This document shows, piece after piece, positions 40,063-58,677 of a stretch of 64,000 nt of DNA. This stretch comes from Nitrospira sp. ND1 (lineage in GTDB: Bacteria > Nitrospirota > Nitrospiria > Nitrospirales > Nitrospiraceae), in NCBI RefSeq assembly GCF_900170025.1, contig NZ_FWEX01000005.1:673774-737773 (forward strand). The letters are read 5' to 3'. The position numbers and the translations under genes were made by a program. The stretch's first letter is position 1; each line of letters opens with the position of its first letter. Under the pieces are notes generated by a model. The model had not been told where the DNA came from. It searched no databases and saw nothing but the letters and a program-made list of their open reading frames with translations.

Positions 40063-40950
40063 ATGAGCATGACCGGCAAACCGCACTTCACACAACGAGA
40101 TCCGGCGTCGTCCGACAGGGTGCCTCCTCCCCGAAAGCCGGCGCGGAGCATGCCACGCGCGAAGGCAAGCAGCGCGAAACGTGTGACGCTGGATCGCCTG
40201 CTCTCCAAACTCGGCATTGCCAGCCGGAGCCAGGCACAGGAATGGATCAGGGCCGGACGAGTCCGCATCAATCAACGCCTGGTACGCATGCCGGACACCT
40301 GGATCGACTGGCCCGGCGATGCCGTCACCATCGACGATCGACCGGTCCAGCAGCGCCCTCCGCAATTCATTCTCTTCCATAAACCCAAAGGTGTAGTCAC
40401 GACCCATCAGGACGAGAAGGGCCGAAAGACCATCTTCGATGTACTTCCTCCTGAGTTGAAAAGCCTGCACGCAGTCGGTCGCTTGGATCAGGCGACGAGT
40501 GGTCTCCTCCTGCTCACCAACGACTCGACGCTCTCCAGTTTCCTGACCGATCCGAAACAGCAGGTGCCGCGCCTCTATCTAGTCACGGTGCGTGGTGAGG
40601 TCTCGGACGAGACAGGCCGGGCAGCGCTTGACGGGGTGGACGATCAGGGCGAGCGGTTGCACTGCGCCTCCGTCACCATTCAGAAACGCTCAGGCCGGGA
40701 ATCCCATCTGGCCGTCACGTTGACCGAAGGCAAGAATCGTGAGATCCGGCGGCTCTTCAAGGCGCTGGGACATGAGGTGACCAGATTGAGGCGGATTCAA
40801 TACGGCCCCTTCACCCTCGGCGATCTCCAACCGGGCGCCTGGCGCGAACTCCCGATCGACGCAGCCAGGGCGCAACTCCAGTTGCCGCCGGCTCATAGGG
40901 CACGGGTACCACAGGCGAAACCAGACCTGCTCGACAAGCGCGCACCCTGA
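40063..40950 (+). CDS. rluB: rRNA pseudouridine synthase, RsuA/RluB family
   Basis: 295 residues. An S4 RNA-binding domain near residues 43-90 (LDRLLSKLGIASRSQAQEWI) follows a basic 40-residue extension. The synthase domain has the catalytic Asp in AVGRLDQATSGLLLLTNDS, FHKPKGVVTTH upstream and the motif GKNREIRRLFKALGHEVTRL. Isomerises a uridine in 23S or 16S rRNA. Whether it is RluB, RluE/F or RsuA cannot be settled from sequence alone; RluB is the best guess by length. Confidence 0.88.
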   Translation: MSMTGKPHFTQRDPASSDRVPPPRKPARSMPRAKASSAKRVTLDRLLSKLGIASRSQAQEWIRAGRVRINQRLVRMPDTWIDWPGDAVTIDDRPVQQRPPQFILFHKPKGVVTTHQDEKGRKTIFDVLPPELKSLHAVGRLDQATSGLLLLTNDSTLSSFLTDPKQQVPRLYLVTVRGEVSDETGRAALDGVDDQGERLHCASVTIQKRSGRESHLAVTLTEGKNREIRRLFKALGHEVTRLRRIQYGPFTLGDLQPGAWRELPIDAARAQLQLPPAHRARVPQAKPDLLDKRAP

Positions 40951-50628: not shown

Positions 50629-50647
50629 GGGGTCAGGTCTTGCAATC
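50629..50647 (+). repeat. REP copy 1
   Basis: Exact GGGGTCAGGTCTTGCAATC. The only full copy in the set that does not follow a stop codon; it lies upstream of the MazG-like gene. Confidence 0.85.
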
Positions 50648-50829
50648 ATACAATCTTATCTGGCCTCACAGCCGCAGCCGGCGCGTTTCTCGTCGAACTA
50701 CGCTGGAATCCTGCAATCGAATTGTCGTACTCTGCCTGCCCTTGTCCTGTCTGGTTGCAGATTCCTGGGACCGGCGAAACCCAGACAGAGCAACTGAATT
50801 ACCGGCGAGTGTACGGCCTGGCGATGGGT

Positions 50830-50848
50830 GATTTCCAGACCTGACTCC
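50830..50848 (-). repeat. REP copy 2 (degenerate)
   Basis: Reverse-orientation copy with three mismatches, pairing with copy 1 to bound a 220-bp non-coding unit. Confidence 0.55.
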
Positions 50849-50992
50849 CTCCAGGCGTGATGCCTGATAGAGCGGCCGGGAACATGATTGAAAAATAGGA
50901 GCGAGTGACGTAGAGGATGAGGTAGGAACAGACAGGCTGCGGCAACACTTCACACGCAGGTGGTCTCGGCGCTGTTTGCAGGAGGTCCGATC

Positions 50993-51541
50993 ATGAACGT
51001 ACGACTCGTGGTCCTGTTGTTTCCACTCTTGTCGATCGGTGCGTCAGTTCACGCACAGAGCACTTGTTCGGATTGTTTCAACGCCGCACAAGCGGAGGCG
51101 AGAAAATGCCTCGATAATGCCATTAGTGCAGGCGATAGGAACGATTGCCTGGAGACTCGGCAAACCCGAACCAAGGCTTGCAGCGACAATCAATGTCGGG
51201 AGGACAGAGAGGAAGTGGCGACCACGGAGACGCAACCGACGCGCAGTCGGCCGGGCGTCACGCCATACACACCAACGGAAGGCGAGTGGCTGGCATTACT
51301 CATGCGAGCCGGCCTGAGACGCGAGGCTACTCCCGACCATCCCTATTCGCTCGACATTGTACTCGCCGATCCGCAAACGCTCCAGATTGTCGTGCGACAT
51401 GCTTCCACGCTGGACCGCAACACGCTGAACAAAGCCATCGAGACCGCCCGGGAAGCGATCAGAAGCACGGCTAGAAATTATGGATGGGAAAAGTGGGTCA
51501 AGATCCGGGAGACGGTCGAAGCATATCCCGCCAAGAAATAA
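50993..51541 (+). CDS. Exported Cys-containing protein of unknown function
   Basis: 182 residues from the ATG at 50993, preceded by GGAGGTCCGATC. Signal peptide (VVLLFPLLSIGASVHA-QS), then a Cys-rich segment with CSDC, C, C and C (STCSDCFNAAQAEARKCLDN; ACSDNQCREDREEV) suggesting two disulfides. A C-terminal domain follows (HPYSLDIVLADPQTLQIVVR; NTLNKAIETAREAIRSTARN). No recognised family. A REP copy starts 23 nt after its stop. Confidence 0.7.
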   Translation: MNVRLVVLLFPLLSIGASVHAQSTCSDCFNAAQAEARKCLDNAISAGDRNDCLETRQTRTKACSDNQCREDREEVATTETQPTRSRPGVTPYTPTEGEWLALLMRAGLRREATPDHPYSLDIVLADPQTLQIVVRHASTLDRNTLNKAIETAREAIRSTARNYGWEKWVKIRETVEAYPAKK

Positions 51542-51564
51542 ACCTCCCCCTTTTTCCCTTTTTT

Positions 51565-51583
51565 GGGGTCAGGTCTTGCAATC
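51565..51583 (+). repeat. REP copy 3, at the 3' end of the RAYT gene
   Basis: Exact GGGGTCAGGTCTTGCAATC, 23 nt after the stop of the exported-protein gene in its sense direction. It overlaps the last codons of the convergent RAYT gene, whose stop is at 51582-51584. With copy 4 it bounds the RAYT gene as an inverted pair. Confidence 0.9.
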
Positions 51584-52418
51584 ACATACTTTCCTGCTCG
51601 GCCCGCTTCAAGCGGCGGCTCACCGTGGCGGCATGTACACCCAGATGGTCCGCAATTTCGGCCAATCGATACCCGTACTGCCGATAGGCCTGATGGATGG
51701 TCTTCTCCAGGTCGCCCTTCCGCTGAAACAGCGTTTCCAATGAGGGGCGCTGGGCTTGCGTCTGTCGGCGCGGAATGTCACGGATCACCCGATTCGGTTG
51801 GTGCTGCGCCACGAATTTTTCCGACCCCAGGTAGATCTGGCCGGTGAGTTGCTCCCAAGGGACTGGCCCACCCCGCCCCTCCGCCACAAAGGTGCGATAC
51901 CGCTCCTGCGCCGGTCCCTCGCGTTGGCCGAATTGACTCAGAATCCAGTTCGTCGTCAGCCAGCCAGGCGCCTTCGTCTCCCCCACCGTCGCCCGGTAAC
52001 TGCTCCAGGCCCATAACCGGGGATGAGACACGATCTTCGCACGGACCGGATTCAGCACGACGTACCGGCACAATTCAAGCAGATGCGCGTCTTTTTCCAC
52101 CAGAATCGCCGTGAAGCGCCCTTGAAACACATGCCCGACCTGCTCGTGACGGAGGTTGTAGGCCTGCGTATAGCGGCCATTCAATTGCCGCATGCCGAGC
52201 GAGAGATTCGGCTTCGGCGTCTCGATCAACAGATGATAGTGATTGTCCATCAGACAGTAGGCATGGCAGATCCACCCGTAGCGATCGATGACGTGGGCCA
52301 GCAGGCTCAGCCATTGGGAGCGGTCGCGATCGTCAGCTACGATGTCTTGCCGGGCGTTGCCCCGACTCGTGACATGGTAGACGGCGCCGGGGAATGACAA
52401 ACGAAGGGGACGTGCCAT
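51582..52418 (-). CDS. rayT: REP-associated tyrosine transposase (RAYT, Y1/HUH type)
   Basis: 278 residues. IS200-like single-strand transposase domain: N-terminal MARPLRLSFPGAVYHVTSRG, the metal-binding HUH motif LMDNHYHLLIETP (HxH), and RHEQVGHVFQGRFTAILVEK. The ELCRYVVLNPVRAKIV helix probably holds the catalytic Tyr. A C-terminal helix-turn-helix follows (YGYRLAEIADHLGVHAATVS). RAYTs cut and join REP sequences; here inverted REP copies at 51565 and 52448 flank the gene. The domain set is complete, so it is probably functional. Confidence 0.92.
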   Translation of the reverse strand: MARPLRLSFPGAVYHVTSRGNARQDIVADDRDRSQWLSLLAHVIDRYGWICHAYCLMDNHYHLLIETPKPNLSLGMRQLNGRYTQAYNLRHEQVGHVFQGRFTAILVEKDAHLLELCRYVVLNPVRAKIVSHPRLWAWSSYRATVGETKAPGWLTTNWILSQFGQREGPAQERYRTFVAEGRGGPVPWEQLTGQIYLGSEKFVAQHQPNRVIRDIPRRQTQAQRPSLETLFQRKGDLEKTIHQAYRQYGYRLAEIADHLGVHAATVSRRLKRAEQESM

Positions 52419-52447
52419 GAGCGGGAGTGTAGCGTGAGAAATTGTTT

Positions 52448-52466
52448 AATTGCAAGACCTGACCCC
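52448..52466 (-). repeat. REP copy 4, between cydB and the RAYT gene
   Basis: On the minus strand it reads GGGGTCAGGTCTTGCAATT, 17 nt after the cydB stop in its sense direction and 29 nt upstream of the RAYT start. Forms the second arm of the inverted pair around RAYT. Confidence 0.9.
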
Positions 52467-52483
52467 GTAGAAGGGAGGGAAGG

Positions 52484-53533
52484 CTAGTGGTGCGCCGCCG
52501 GAGAAGATCCAGGCTTGGCCGGGCGGGCGAAGAGGCGATGAATCTGCACTTGATACAGGATCACCAAGGCCAGGCCCGGGGGCACCCACCAGAGACCGGC
52601 TTCGAGGCCGGTCCGGTCGGTTGCGGCGTTGAGGCTCGTGAGACTGTTGGCCTGTCCGGTCGTCGCAATCAACAGATTGGGAAAAATCCCCCAAGCCGCC
52701 GCAACCAATAGGCTCGCGACCGACACACTCGACGCCACGAAGCCAACGAACGGCCGTTGACGGACAGCGCTCACGTGCCGGACCAGCAGCGCGACCACCG
52801 CCGTCAGGGGCCAGACAAAGCCGATGGGAGCGGCCGCATAATGCACGCCGAACGCTGGCTGCACGGAGGGCAGCGCCACGACCAGGGCCACGAGCAACAA
52901 CACCAACAAGACGGTTGCGGACTTCGCCAGCGCCTCCGCCCTTGCCTGCAACTCCCCGCGCGTCTTCATGACCAGGAAACTCGCGCCCTGCAACGTCAAC
53001 AGGGCGACCAGGGTCAGCCCCGTCAGCAGAGTGAACCAATCCAGAATGCCGGGCATCGAACCGGGGCTGAAGTCGGTCCAGAGCGGAAGGAAGAAATAGC
53101 CGCTCGCATTCAAAGGAACGCCCCGCAGCAGATTCCCCACCACCAGCCCCACCACGAAGGCCAGCAGCAGATTGGCCAGAAAGAAGATCGTATCCCAGAA
53201 CGTGCGCCACAACGCGTGATCGACATGCTCTCGCAGTTCGAACGCCAACCCCCTCCCCATCAGGAGCCACAGCATGATCATCAAGGCGAGGTAGAACCCG
53301 CTGAACCCCGACGCAAAGGCCTTCGGAAAGGCCAGGAACAAGAGAGCGCTGCCGGCGATCACCCACACTTCGTTGCCGGTCCACACCGGTCCGATCGTCT
53401 CCCGCACCAGGCGGCGTTCGCTCTCCTGCCGGGCCACGAATGGCGACAGGATCCCGACGCCGAAGTCATAGCCGTCGAGCACCACATAGGTGGTCAACAC
53501 GAACAGCACCAGGGCATACCAGATCGTTTCCAA
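52484..53533 (-). CDS. cydB: Cytochrome bd ubiquinol oxidase subunit II
   Basis: 349 residues, about nine membrane helices. Partner of CydA in the high-affinity terminal oxidase. Family signatures: YVVLDGYDFGVGILSPFVAR, GPVWTGNEVWVIAGSALLFL, and FPKAFASGFSGFYLALM at the N-terminal half. Length is slightly shorter than the E. coli form but normal for the family. Three bp after cydA, so co-transcribed. A REP element follows the stop. Confidence 0.95.
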   Translation of the reverse strand: METIWYALVLFVLTTYVVLDGYDFGVGILSPFVARQESERRLVRETIGPVWTGNEVWVIAGSALLFLAFPKAFASGFSGFYLALMIMLWLLMGRGLAFELREHVDHALWRTFWDTIFFLANLLLAFVVGLVVGNLLRGVPLNASGYFFLPLWTDFSPGSMPGILDWFTLLTGLTLVALLTLQGASFLVMKTRGELQARAEALAKSATVLLVLLLVALVVALPSVQPAFGVHYAAAPIGFVWPLTAVVALLVRHVSAVRQRPFVGFVASSVSVASLLVAAAWGIFPNLLIATTGQANSLTSLNAATDRTGLEAGLWWVPPGLALVILYQVQIHRLFARPAKPGSSPAAHH

Positions 53534-53536
53534 GCG

Positions 53537-54883
53537 CTAGCTCCCCGCCTGCCCCACAGCCGGCTCCGTCGGCCCGTGACGCAGGATCTCCAGAAACAAC
53601 AAGACGAACAGCAGCCCCAACCCGAGATAGATCCCCAGGAAGCCCAGCAAGGTGAAGAGAGCATTGCCGGAATGGACCAACGGCGAGATGCCCTCCTCCG
53701 TGCGAAAGAGCCCGTACACCAGCCAGGGTTGGCGGCCGAGCTCCGCCGTCATCCAGCCGGCTGTCGTCGCAAGATAGGGAAAAGGAGCGCTCAACAGCAG
53801 GAGCCAGAGCAACCAACGGGCAGTGAAGAGCCGGCCACGCCACAACCACGCCAGGGCCAATCCCATCACCGCGAGCAGGAGCGTGCCGAGCCCGACCATG
53901 ATGTGGTACGCGTAATACAGCAGCGCAATGTGGTCCGGCCACTCGCGCGGGGGAAAGGCATCCAGCCCCTTCACCTTCGCGTAAAGATCGTCATAGGCGA
54001 GCAGGCTCAGCGCCGACGGCACGACGAGCGGATTATCGATCGTCATGGTTTCCATGTTGGGCTGGCCGATCAGCACGAGGTCGGCGCCGCGCTCGGTGCG
54101 AAAGAGGCCCTCGAAGGCAGCGCCCTTGACCGGCTGGAACTCGAACACCTGCCGCGCGCTCTCATGTCCCGTCGGTGTGATGAGCAGCACCGAGGCGAAC
54201 GCGCCCGCCACAACGCCCGTGCGCAGACAGGTCCTGGCCAGCGCAGGATGTTTCCCCGCCAGTTGATAGAGGCCACCCACCGCAGCCACCACGAACGCGC
54301 CGGTGACGACCGCCGCCGTCATGTTATGGGCGAACTGCCAGATCAGCCAGGGATTCGTGAGCAGCCCGACCAGACTCTCGACCGTCAGACGGCCGTCGGC
54401 CGCCACGTGATAGGCCACAGGATGTTGCATCCAGGCGTTCGTCGCCAGAATAAAATAGCCGGATAACCAGGAACCGAGCCATAGCAAAACCGTCGCCAGC
54501 CACAACGTGCGCCGGCTCACGCGCGATTCGCCGAATAAGAGCACCCCGAGGAACGACGACTCCAAAAAAAAGGCGAACACCCCTTCCATCGCCAGCGTCT
54601 GCCCGACGATGCCGCCTGCGTATTCGGAGAACTTGGCCCAGTTGGTGCCGAACTGAAATTCGAGCGGAATGCCCGTGACGACCCCGAACGCGAAACTCAG
54701 CGCAAAGATGCCGGTCCAGAATCGCGCGACCTGGTGATAATGGTCCCCCTCACTGAGCAGGTCACGCGTGCGCAGATACACCAGCAGCAGGGCGAGTCCC
54801 ATCGTGAGCTGAGGAAAGAGGTAGTGAAACGTGGCCGTGACGGCGAATTGCAGCCGGTCATATTGCAGCGCGGTATCCATCAC
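53537..54883 (-). CDS. cydA: Cytochrome bd ubiquinol oxidase subunit I
   Basis: 448 residues. Binds haems b558, b595 and d and oxidises quinol. Conserved features: RLQFAVTATFHYLFPQLTMG (haem His region), PLEFQFGTNWAKFSEYAGGI, FAHNMTAAVVTGAFVVAAVG, and the GWxxxExGRQPW motif as AGWMTAELGRQPWLVYG. The quinol loop is short, as in the CydA-S subgroup. First gene of cydAB; a hairpin (54934-54956) lies just upstream. Confidence 0.95.
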   Translation of the reverse strand: MMDTALQYDRLQFAVTATFHYLFPQLTMGLALLLVYLRTRDLLSEGDHYHQVARFWTGIFALSFAFGVVTGIPLEFQFGTNWAKFSEYAGGIVGQTLAMEGVFAFFLESSFLGVLLFGESRVSRRTLWLATVLLWLGSWLSGYFILATNAWMQHPVAYHVAADGRLTVESLVGLLTNPWLIWQFAHNMTAAVVTGAFVVAAVGGLYQLAGKHPALARTCLRTGVVAGAFASVLLITPTGHESARQVFEFQPVKGAAFEGLFRTERGADLVLIGQPNMETMTIDNPLVVPSALSLLAYDDLYAKVKGLDAFPPREWPDHIALLYYAYHIMVGLGTLLLAVMGLALAWLWRGRLFTARWLLWLLLLSAPFPYLATTAGWMTAELGRQPWLVYGLFRTEEGISPLVHSGNALFTLLGFLGIYLGLGLLFVLLFLEILRHGPTEPAVGQAGS

Positions 54884-54933
54884 TACCTCACCCCCTTGAA
54901 TTGGCCCGCGACATTGTGACTGATCAGACCTGC

Positions 54934-54956
54934 TGGGGAAGCTAGTGACTTCCCCA
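54934..54956. other. Hairpin between pssA and cydA
   Basis: An 8-bp perfect stem TGGGGAAG / CTTCCCCA (54934-54941, 54949-54956) with a 7-nt loop. No T tract follows on the minus strand, so it is not a clear terminator; it may shape the cydAB leader or end pssA transcripts by another route. Confidence 0.4.
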
Positions 54957-54973
54957 GGGCCGATGAAGTATTT

Positions 54974-54992
54974 GATTGCAACACCTGACCCT
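54974..54992 (-). repeat. REP copy 5, after pssA
   Basis: Minus strand AGGGTCAGGTGTTGCAATC, 20 nt after the pssA stop in its sense direction. Two differences from the exact copies. Confidence 0.85.
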
Positions 54993-55012
54993 AAATAGAA
55001 ATAGTGCGACGT

Positions 55013-55609
55013 CTACAGTTTGGGGATGTGGAGGGTTTTGCTGATCATCAGGGTGCCGGAGAGGACGAACATCAGGGACAGGGGATGCAGGTCGCCGGGC
55101 CCGACGGTCCAGACACCCCAATAGAGATGTTCGCCGAGTCGCTCCTGCCAGGCGGCCAGGGCTAGGACGCCGGTCAACAGCGCGGTGGTGGGAATGGGGG
55201 TGCCTTCGAAATAAGCCACCTTCTCCCGACCCGCGGAGAGGCTCTCGGCAGTCACGTTGTACCGGGCCAGGCGACTCACCCCGCAGCAGACGAAGTACGT
55301 CAGCGCGATCCAGTCCCACCCTCCTCTTAGACCGGCGGCGAATCCGAGTGCTGCCGGTGCGACTCCGAATGAGATGATGTCGGCCAGCGAATCCAACTCC
55401 CGCCCGAGCACTGACTGCTGATGCCGCCATCGAGCAACCCGGCCGTCCAACCAATCAAAGAGCAGGGCCGCCGGCGCCAGGGTCGTGGCGGCGAAGAAAT
55501 GGGTCGGAGACCCGCTGCCCATGTAGTGCATGGCGAAGAACACGGCCGCGAGCCCGCAGGCGGCGTTGCCCAGCGTGAGCACGTCGGCCAGATGAAACTC
55601 GCGGAGCAT
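55013..55609 (-). CDS. pssA: CDP-diacylglycerol-serine O-phosphatidyltransferase
   Basis: 198 residues from the ATG at 55609 (MLREFHLADVLTLGNAACGL). The frame is open to 55765, but the extra 52 residues look non-coding; no clear ribosome-binding site supports either. Integral membrane enzyme making phosphatidylserine, precursor of phosphatidylethanolamine. The CDP-alcohol phosphotransferase signature DG-x2-AR-x8-G-x3-D-x3-D is present: DWLDGRVARWRHQQSVLGRE continuing DSLADIISFGVAPA. About six membrane helices. Confidence 0.88.
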   Translation of the reverse strand: MLREFHLADVLTLGNAACGLAAVFFAMHYMGSGSPTHFFAATTLAPAALLFDWLDGRVARWRHQQSVLGRELDSLADIISFGVAPAALGFAAGLRGGWDWIALTYFVCCGVSRLARYNVTAESLSAGREKVAYFEGTPIPTTALLTGVLALAAWQERLGEHLYWGVWTVGPGDLHPLSLMFVLSGTLMISKTLHIPKL

Positions 55610-55796
55610 CGAAAAATGTTTCGGAGCTGCAGCGGCCACGACAGGAAAATCTACGCGGGATTGCGCCGAATGTCCAGAATCTGAACTCTGAAGCGAGTGG
55701 GGTGCAGTCAAGCAGAACTTCTTGTCGTCTTCATTGCCCGACCAAGCCGGGCGGCAGGCCCGCAAGCCTACCGCCCCGGACTACTTCGAAATGGGA

Positions 55797-56114
55797 TTAG
55801 GGCTCAACCCGTTGCAACGTGGTCACGTGGCCTTTATCGGTGACATAGGCCTTGACCATATCGCCTTCGACCACCTTGTCGAGCTTCGTGCTCTTGTCCA
55901 CATGCACTTTGACGAGTTCCCCGTCTGTATTTCTGATCTGATAAAACTCGCCGTCCATCTTCATGAGGGTGCCCTTGACGGCATCCTTGGTGATCCGCTC
56001 ACCGATGCTCGGCGTGGCTTCCTTCTCTTTCATGGGATCGGCCGCAAACGCGAGTCCTCCCCCTCCGCTAACCAGGGCTGCGACGAGCAGCATTTCAACA
56101 CTTCGTTTCATCAT
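55797..56114 (-). CDS. Small exported protein of unknown function
   Basis: 105 residues from the ATG at 56114, with GGAGGG 4-5 nt upstream. Signal peptide (EMLLVAALVSGGGGLAFAAD), then a short OB- or SH3-like beta domain: DAVKGTLMKMDGEFYQIRNT, DGELVKVHVDKSTKLDKVVE, and VKAYVTDKGHVTTLQRVEP. Similar small proteins occur widely in Nitrospira-type genomes, as I recall. Function unknown. Confidence 0.75.
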   Translation of the reverse strand: MMKRSVEMLLVAALVSGGGGLAFAADPMKEKEATPSIGERITKDAVKGTLMKMDGEFYQIRNTDGELVKVHVDKSTKLDKVVEGDMVKAYVTDKGHVTTLQRVEP

Positions 56115-56326
56115 ATACCCTCCCATGTTGTCACTGAGTCGGTGTCAACTCTTACCGTAACCCTCATGAGAAGGAGGACATACTGGGAAAATCCCCTGCC
56201 ACCGGGCCTCTGTGAGTCATGTGGGGAACGCAGGCTGGATAGGCGGATGACTAAATTCGAACCAGGGATTCCATGTTGAGAGGAAACGAGGTAGCTGATG
56301 AAAGCTTCGGTGGGCTGCGATTGTTC

Positions 56327-56420
56327 CCCAAGTGTTCCGCAATCACAGCCGACTGATACCCGTACTGACAGATCAGCCCGCTGAACCATCTTCTCCGGGC
56401 CGTACTTCCACTCAAACCGC
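56327..56420 (-). pseudogene. Remnant of the C-terminal part of a RAYT gene
   Basis: About 90 bases align well with the 3' part of the intact RAYT (51640-51735), sharing for example GATACCCGTACTG and ATCTTCTCC against GTCTTCTCC. Translated on the minus strand it reads QYGYQSAVIAEHLG, versus QYGYRLAEIADHLG in the intact protein. The catalytic region is gone. A REP copy (56494-56512) lies on its 5' side, as it does for the intact gene. Confidence 0.75.
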
Positions 56421-56493
56421 CCGGGGCCTGACATCGCCGCCTAAGATGCCCCCCGGAAAAGATTTCATGCTGACCTCCCTCGATCAATTGTTT

Positions 56494-56512
56494 GATTGCA
56501 AGACCTGACCCT
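56494..56512 (-). repeat. REP copy 6, after hflX
   Basis: Minus strand AGGGTCAGGTCTTGCAATC, 21 nt after the hflX stop in its sense direction and upstream of the RAYT remnant. Flanking bases also match copies 4 and 5 (AATTGTTT on one side, TAAAT on the other). Confidence 0.9.
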
Positions 56513-58658: not shown

Positions 58659-58677
58659 GATTTCAAGGCCTGCCCCT
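58659..58677 (-). repeat. REP copy 7 (degenerate), after the HNH gene
   Basis: Minus strand AGGGGCAGGCCTTGAAATC, four differences, 24 nt after the HNH nuclease stop in its sense direction. Confidence 0.65.

Follow-up and report, generated by a model that had tools for sequence, protein, structure and literature searches.

What kind of element lies at positions 51565–52466 of a 64,000-nt stretch of the Nitrospira sp. ND1 genome (hereafter the window), and does it move as one unit? How an enzyme of a hairpin-binding class acts on plain inverted repeats is poorly accounted for, and here a RAYT-like transposase gene (a 278-aa open reading frame (ORF) with an ATG start and a TGA stop) was found between terminal inverted repeats (TIRs) whose 18-mers, GGGGTCAGGTCTTGCAAT, were inverted and identical at 18/18 positions (coordinates in Table 1), giving a length of 902 bp from outer end to outer end. 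An earlier note on this DNA had described an intact gene in a self-contained unit with one repeat overlapping the stop codon, and this description stands, the left 18-mer sharing one base with the TGA. Carried by a Nitrospira-type genus, the unit is a TIRtron (TIRYT) in the naming of Di Nocera 2013 (PMC3733652); the assignment follows from the absence of a hairpin, the low copy number and the GGGGTCAG start of the ends. It is probably an autonomous element, in which the gene for a HuH (Y1) single-strand transposase is bounded by the inverted repeats that serve as its ends. As judged from sequence comparison, such units appear mobile as a whole in relatives and settled in the window, and what seems to be new is that the C-terminal helix-turn-helix (HTH) of the protein goes with the identity of the ends. 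TIRYTs have been found in many bacterial phyla, yet they are scarcely treated in the literature searched.

The repeats had previously been called repetitive extragenic palindromic (REP) sequences, a label that the data did not bear out. A single 30-nt end formed no hairpin on folding (0.0 or −0.2 kcal/mol, DNA parameters), the two unit ends annealed together reached −20.2 kcal/mol, the 18-mer had neither a GTAG nor a GTGG foot on sequence inspection, and both unit ends began with GGGGTCAG, which fits the consensus GGGGWSAS. Matches to GGGGTCAGGTCTTGCAAT at ≤3 mismatches numbered six in the window (0.05 expected from 100 dinucleotide shuffles), all confined to 50629–56512, and 11 in the whole 4.45-Mb genome (4 for the control, the pattern reversed); at ≤1 mismatch the genome held seven (control 0). 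A canonical REPtron, in which the repeats would be REPs and the 220-bp neighbour at 50629–50848 a REPIN, is suggested by the clustering of the repeats around the transposase gene and by the NCBIfam label REP-associated tyrosine transposase (REP_Tyr_transpos), which the protein obtained at 80.2 bits, barely over the cut-off of 80. This explanation is barely credible, given a single end without a hairpin, an 18-mer without a GTAG foot, seven genome copies at ≤1 mismatch rather than hundreds, and the statement, in the part of PMC6006769 on TnpAY1 subclass 2.1, that no REPs lie near its genes; HTH domains of this kind are found in that subclass.

The protein matched the Pfam families Y1_Tnp (E 2e-11) and HTH_23 (E 2e-5; 24.7 bits, cut-off 24.6). 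Its HuH core spans approximately residues 10–126 and contains H60-Y61-H62 and Y119---N123P124, of which H60, H62, Y119, N123 and P124 were unchanged across 40 aligned proteins. The AlphaFold2 model (mean predicted local distance difference test score 91.1) placed a C-terminal HTH at ~236–278, with helices at 237–247, 252–259 and 263–277. In a fold search, the model resembled the Escherichia coli REP transposase TnpAREP (4er8_A, Z 15.8 over 154 residues) and the IS608/ISDra2 transposases (Z 8.8–10.3; 2a6m Z 10.3, 2xo6 Z 9.0), and a phmmer search of the transposase against solved structures gave no genuine match. The HTH resembled sigma-H region 4 (5zx2_F, Z 6.5, rmsd 0.9 over 43 residues) and DeoR (8r7y, Z 6.4); both scores were middling, and these likenesses may amount to no more than a common HTH in the model.

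Comparison among relatives, referred to below by genome (G) and locus (L) handles, showed that units of the TIRtron family reach new places by being copied as blocks from one TIR to the other, accurate to ~10 bases as judged from where similarity stops. Six same-genome comparisons had similarity spanning TIR to TIR, namely G131 (98.6% over 926 bp), G115 (98.6% over 936 bp), G300 (93.3% over 920 bp), G107 (88.6% over 922 bp), G103 a/b (84% over 930 bp) and G091 (78.6% over 902 bp), with limits at the TIR outer ends or ≤ ~10 bases from them and, in the G115 and G300 pairs, an extension of some bases beyond the TIR on one side. Other same-genome pairs lacked such end-to-end similarity, among them the neighbouring genes in G115 (72% over 394 bp) and G131c/a (71% over 386 bp), and the G103 a/c comparison gave no match. 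Overall, 186 gene hits yielded 132 elements (124 distinct), short-flank hits being pooled with those lacking both TIRs, and the 124 distinct elements measured 892–1052 bp with both TIRs present. Between genomes, the units of G021 and G017 (the latter with a damaged right end) were 94.9% identical and had as their only other match of ≥100 bp a unit-end relic, and the matches of the G021, G011 and G022 units to the window were confined to the unit (in G022 to 51742–52465 only), except for one 66-bp G021 match elsewhere.

Sites without the unit were also found. G105 and G103 contained both flanks of a G115 unit (88–91% identity) and no unit, G103 having in addition a unit-end piece ~480–580 bp further on, near the place of a 212-bp derivative in G115. 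G067 and others kept both flanks of the G069 site and lacked the unit together with ~1.1 kb more, the insertion in the G069/G067 comparison beginning within ~7 nt of the TIR. Repeats left standing where the gene is gone would argue against movement as one unit, and such cases were few: 16 of 17 genomes that have the gene at 50960–51541 with no unit beside it lacked a TIR downstream (≤4 mismatches; G017 excluded for its 37% partial match), G021 keeping a solo copy, and 11 of 12 unit-free genomes at the G069 site lacked one (≤4 mismatches) in the stretch taken, the twelfth (G118) having one far from the junction. The earlier proposal that the unit moves as one is upheld through its relatives, and the comparison suggested with it, for presence or absence at clean empty sites, gave unit-free sites in relatives (G105 and G103), though not precise to the base.

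Several observations weigh against movement as a precise unit. A base-precise empty site was not found in any comparison of the genus or family: the G115/G105 junctions were blurred (~72 nt of G105 without counterpart, and 31 + 10 extra nt beside the unit in G115), and the insert in G069/G067 amounted to 2.05 kb, the unit plus ~1.1 kb. No target-site duplication was recognised by eye at unit junctions. The similarity of the G082 pair (85.7% over 888 bp) ended inside the 3' part of the gene, that of the G217 pair (81.4% over 749 bp) covered only part of the unit, and the G131 neighbourhoods also shared a separate identical stretch of 163 bp that adjoined one copy and lay ~1 kb from the other. 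The youngest duplicates (G131 and G115) belong to another subtype, being 56–57% aa relatives of the window protein. In the genus table, built from one genome per Nitrospira species, no genome held two full-length copies of like identity, and recent movement of the window-type unit was therefore not seen. Flank searches within the genus returned only G021 for the G021 flank and only G009 and G015 for the G009 flank; in G009 and G015 the unit lies beside a gene whose homologue is near window position 40190, and alignment to the window is limited to the left flank. The G017 flank had partial matches in four other genomes, none of them taken as an empty site.

The window copy itself looks long settled, shared in place by five species, with gene and ends under constraint. 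The unit follows the 50960–51541 gene in G000, G001, G012, G019 and G028; in G002 a frame-broken unit lies ~105 nt past that gene, and in G007 a distant (34–37%) transposase-like fragment lies beside it. Identities at the three codon positions over the five species were 0.95/0.97/0.78, the right TIR was 0.98 identical over 10 pairs and the left TIR 18/18 in every pair not involving G019 (where this end is damaged), compared with 0.55 in the spacer between the 50960–51541 gene and the left TIR. A domesticated gene, kept vertically by the host for a cellular job such as single-stranded DNA processing, with the repeats serving that job or the gene's own regulation, would account for an intact gene at the same place in five species, for a third-codon identity below that of the first two positions, for TIRs nearly unchanged beside a diverged spacer, and for mostly one full-length window-type copy per genus genome. 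It would also fit the near absence from plasmids (2/72,556 records at E 1e-30, both from Legionella adelaidensis) and phages (0/50,697 records at E 1e-20). We nevertheless consider domestication unlikely, as the distribution is patchy (matches at E ≤ 1e-10 in 19/29 same-genus genomes), different species carry the unit at different loci, relatives contain recent TIR-to-TIR duplicates, and constraint on gene and ends is equally expected of a rarely moving element. Across the phylum, 126/395 genomes had matches at E ≤ 1e-50.

Comparison of many elements showed the TIRs to be bipartite: positions 2–13 hardly vary across phyla, and positions 14–24 vary with the HTH more than with the HuH core. From 572 or more relatives, 80 loci representing many phyla were kept. 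At 62/76 loci (4/80 lacked flank) the inverted repeat found had a higher score than any of 20 shuffles, and the core GGGGTCAGGTCTTG occurred at ≤3 mismatches at both ends of 51/61 chosen loci, a figure that is not a prevalence, as 19 loci with a short flank, a frameshift or a weak repeat had been left out. The covariation set comprised 122 elements by frame and 112 after a 92%-identity filter, and the distances below refer to these 112. TIR positions 2–13 matched the consensus in 0.89–1.00 of ends, and the left and right inner TIRs (14–24) agreed at 0.74 vs 0.53 when shuffled within core clusters, a comparison showing that the two ends of one element change together. For inner-TIR distance, the partial Mantel correlation was r 0.34 (p 0.001) with the HTH, weak with the HuH core (0.12, p 0.001) and absent with the middle region (0.03, p 0.17), and residues 250–278 held most of the HTH signal (partial 0.28 and 0.29). 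Among pairs with close cores (distance <0.25), the inner TIRs differed by 0.26 when the HTHs were alike (67 pairs), the same as the two ends of one element (0.26), and by 0.62 when the HTHs were unlike (30 pairs), which equals the difference for distant cores with unlike HTHs (0.62). The strongest residue–base couplings fell in residues 226–278 in 19 of 30 cases, a region with 46 of the 174 tested columns, and in a tree-aware test 12 of the 25 best pairs fell there (528 of 2024 tests). Residue 268 of the recognition helix paired with TIR base 15 as K-A (25/25), N-T (4/4) and G-G (4/4), and R was mixed.

Shared ancestry alone, with element lineages carrying TIR and HTH along together, could produce such covariation, and several results count in its favour and against recognition by the HTH. 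The lineage structure is strong, and 20 of the 25 K-A cases fell within one core cluster. Mean mutual information exceeded within-cluster shuffles in every region of the protein (z 9.9 for residues 1–130, 9.5 for 131–225, 8.3 for 226–249 and 14.0 for 250–272), which makes the HTH the strongest signal and not the sole one. In the tree-aware test, no residue–base pair reached the Bonferroni-corrected threshold (best p 8e-5 vs 2.5e-5; residue 268 with TIR base 15, p 0.02), and because of this the single-site code is only a prediction. The 30 pairs with apparently swapped HTHs share elements, no pairs were available for the converse case (like HTHs on distant cores), and the sole pair with a core distance of 0.35–0.45 and an HTH distance <0.3 had unlike inner TIRs (0.82). 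Even so, an explanation by ancestry alone is somewhat unlikely: the core and middle regions, subject to the same ancestry, lost their signal with HTH distance held constant and in shuffles within core clusters, whereas the HTH kept it (for either end, 0/500 for the HTH, 88 and 103/500 for the core, and 302 and 339/500 for the middle). In addition, the start-side TIR tracks the HTH even though it adjoins the part of the gene that encodes the core, and where close cores are combined with different HTHs, the inner TIRs differ as well.

Taking the HTH as the reader of the inner TIR, we propose that the conserved outer half of each end (GGGTCAGGTCTT) would be handled by the conserved HuH core, with Tyr119 cutting beside it, and that the element-specific inner half (14–24) would be read by the C-terminal HTH. 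The latter would need duplex DNA, which could be supplied by a double-stranded end or by pairing of the two ends within one strand. Within the start-side TIR there is also a −35-like box (TTGCAA), followed after an 18-nt spacer by a −10-like TACACT, with the start codon 7 nt past the latter, and end binding would probably repress the gene, amounting to autorepression. A −10-like hexamer (≥4/6 vs TATAAT at 14–20 nt spacing) occurred in 83/124 elements vs 43.7 expected in shuffles, with a peak at 17–18 nt; a strict 9-of-12 promoter scan reported none at the window unit. More broadly, it is a serious though tentative possibility that TIRtrons are a HuH transposon family of their own, recognising their ends with two modules: the conserved core would act on the near-universal GGGTCAGGTCTT, which is retained across phyla, and a sigma-4-like HTH, open to exchange, on the element-specific inner sequence in duplex DNA. 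Swapping the HTH while both ends change to match would then generate new, mutually blind element types, and, through the promoter overlap, the same contact would set expression. HTH-to-end recognition is now a concrete and testable domain-to-end prediction, and relatives with recent unit-wise copies are available for its study.

The 220-bp neighbour, previously taken for a non-autonomous partner with the same ends, is present, with a perfect 18-mer at its left end; its right end has 3 mismatches, and the two are only roughly the same. G002, G026 and G023 carry, in the same intergenic space, a relic of a transposase-unit right end (nhmmer E 3e-21, 1e-10 and 3e-7) that aligns with the right-hand portion of the neighbour, and no left TIR is present there; the window region itself gave a weak profile match (E 0.018). 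The right end is therefore older than the left as far as the compared genomes tell, the alternative being that these three genomes lost an old left end. The neighbour is best read, from these alignments, as a decayed and internally deleted derivative of such a unit. A true miniature inverted-repeat transposable element (MITE) moved by the window transposase would likewise have inverted TIR-like ends and no gene, and possible parallels are a 212-bp stretch in G115 that is an internally deleted unit (~117 bp of one end and 97 bp of the other) and a 128-bp inward pair in G028. This alternative is distinctly unlikely, given that the right end is a relic common to genomes lacking the left one, that it has 3–4 mismatches where the left end has none (G000, G001 and G012), and that an inward partner (≤3 mismatches) was found for 8/77 TIRs, at four loci, vs 4/77 back-to-back. 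No sign of movement of the neighbour was seen in the genome comparisons, and among the 11 genome matches only 50629/50831 form an inward pair <400 bp apart; this genome had no second locus of this kind among the TIRs examined for inward partners. The neighbour, whose right end belongs to an older transposase relic, is not a matched MITE, and in our preferred explanation it and the solo repeats near the window unit are remnants of older units.

Table 1. Features of the 902-bp unit and related sequences in the window.
Feature	Position	Strand	Basis or occurrence
Left TIR (gene 3' side), outer GGGG at 51565	51565..51582	+	Identical to right end 18/18; also 18/18 in G001, G012, G028; damaged in G019
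Y1/HuH transposase (TIRYT / RAYT-like), 278 aa	51582..52418	−	Pfam, NCBIfam, AlphaFold2 model, fold match
Right TIR (gene 5' side), outer GGGG at 52466	52449..52466	−	98% identity over 10 pairs of 5 species
Possible transposase promoter: −35-like TTGCAA inside TIR (52455–52450), 18-nt spacer, −10-like TACACT (52431–52426)	52426..52455	−	Sequence
Perfect TIR copy, left end of 220-bp neighbour	50629..50646	+	Also in G001, G012, G028; decayed in G019; absent in G002, G026, G023
Decayed transposase-unit right end (start-codon side), degenerate TIR 50831–50848; start approximate	50790..50848	+	Alignment with G002/G026/G023, profile matches there
Second transposase-unit relic, same orientation; middle deleted; HTH-coding piece 56326–56417, TIR 56495–56512	56309..56512	+	nhmmer E 9e-7, 9e-4; wider profile 4.5e-6, 1e-3
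Solo TIR with 2 mismatches in the pssA–cydA interval	54975..54992	−	
Degenerate solo TIR, 4 mismatches; alone could be chance	58660..58677	−	1 mismatch at corresponding G012 place

The surroundings of the units in relatives provided further observations. A weak AAAT motif preceded the start-side end and was weaker at the other end, and several TIRs lay 14–24 nt past a stop codon with the GGGG end facing it; a count of insertion beside stop codons (22 ORFs ending ≤60 nt away pointed at the TIR vs 13 pointing away, 90 sites) was too noisy to use. In G131, a truncated copy lies immediately before a full unit, the two having one 9-nt flank in common (L325:1808–2467), and elsewhere the right end and its flank are duplicated in tandem (L324:3347–3434), both being a possible source of solo TIRs. 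Two neighbouring units in G082 (L331, 1754–4512) share a similarity that breaks off at the HTH-coding end of the gene, possibly through exchange of an HTH-and-end module. Four TIR-like copies lie within ~325 bp in G027 (L153:2398–2720), two of them 50 bp apart, with inner halves alike. An identical 11-nt sequence, ACTAACAGTAT, stands before the TIR at unrelated loci of G017 (L086:2157–2167, gene 3' side) and G028 (L081:3200–3210, gene 5' side). A 310-bp stretch just outside the G017 unit (L086:1846–2155) recurs at two more places in G017, one of them shorter, and also in G015, and is another repeat family adjoining the element. One syntenic interval (L082, L095) is occupied in G021 by a window-type unit and in G022 by another transposase of ~50% identity, and is perhaps a shared landing region. 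In G069, an ORF between the unit and der resembles, by eye, a VRR-NUC-type nuclease (L283:2999–3433). G028 lacks cydBA and the 3' part of pssA, pssA homology ending ~12 nt away from the start-side TIR's outer end (window 52466–55509; L081:3199–3228), which is a deletion ending beside the element. A contig binned as Pyrinomonadaceae encodes a transposase of 83% identity between ends of this type (L162:3001–3834), reflecting either transfer between phyla or a binning error, and a TIR pattern scan of viral contigs matched one contig.

Compared with known systems, the window unit is closest to the TIRYTs, described in the relevant part of PMC3733652 as Y1 transposase genes, related to RAYTs, that are flanked by TIRs unrelated to REPs, many sharing GGGGWSAS, with repeats that occur single, paired or grouped in genomes. 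It agrees with that description in its RAYT-related Y1/HuH protein, its non-REP TIRs and its consensus, and differs in its host, as the TIRtron passages of that paper do not name Nitrospira as a carrier. Added here to the described TIRtrons are the unit-wise duplicates in relatives, the unit-free sites, the constraint in place and the bipartite end. As set out in the sections of PMC6006769 on these proteins, TnpAY1 subclass 2.1 comprises long proteins with Y---NP, the class 2 signature (Y---Q being that of class 1), a C-terminal HTH (HTH_23, HTH_28 or Bac_DnaA_C) and no REPs nearby; Quentin and co-workers 2018 suggested there that this subclass corresponds to TIRYT and left the role of the HTH in target recognition undecided. 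The window protein is likewise long, with Y---NP, a C-terminal HTH_23 and no REPs nearby, a likeness by features. With the RAYT/REPtron system (E. coli TnpAREP, PDB 4er8; PMC8266576, in the part describing it) it shares the HuH core fold and a gene usually present as one full-length copy, but it has inverted ends without a hairpin or GTAG plus an extra HTH, its relatives duplicate as whole units, and high-copy cognate repeats are lacking (seven copies at ≤1 mismatch in 4.45 Mb). Elements of the IS200/IS605 group (IS608, ISDra2) resemble it in combining a HuH Y1 catalytic core with a mobile unit. Their left and right ends differ from each other, whereas those of the window unit are identical and inverted. 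The IS200/IS605 ends are, in the account given in PMC6006769, subterminal hairpins, which the window unit lacks, and the window unit has no tnpB and a protein with Y119---N123P124 in place of Y---Q.
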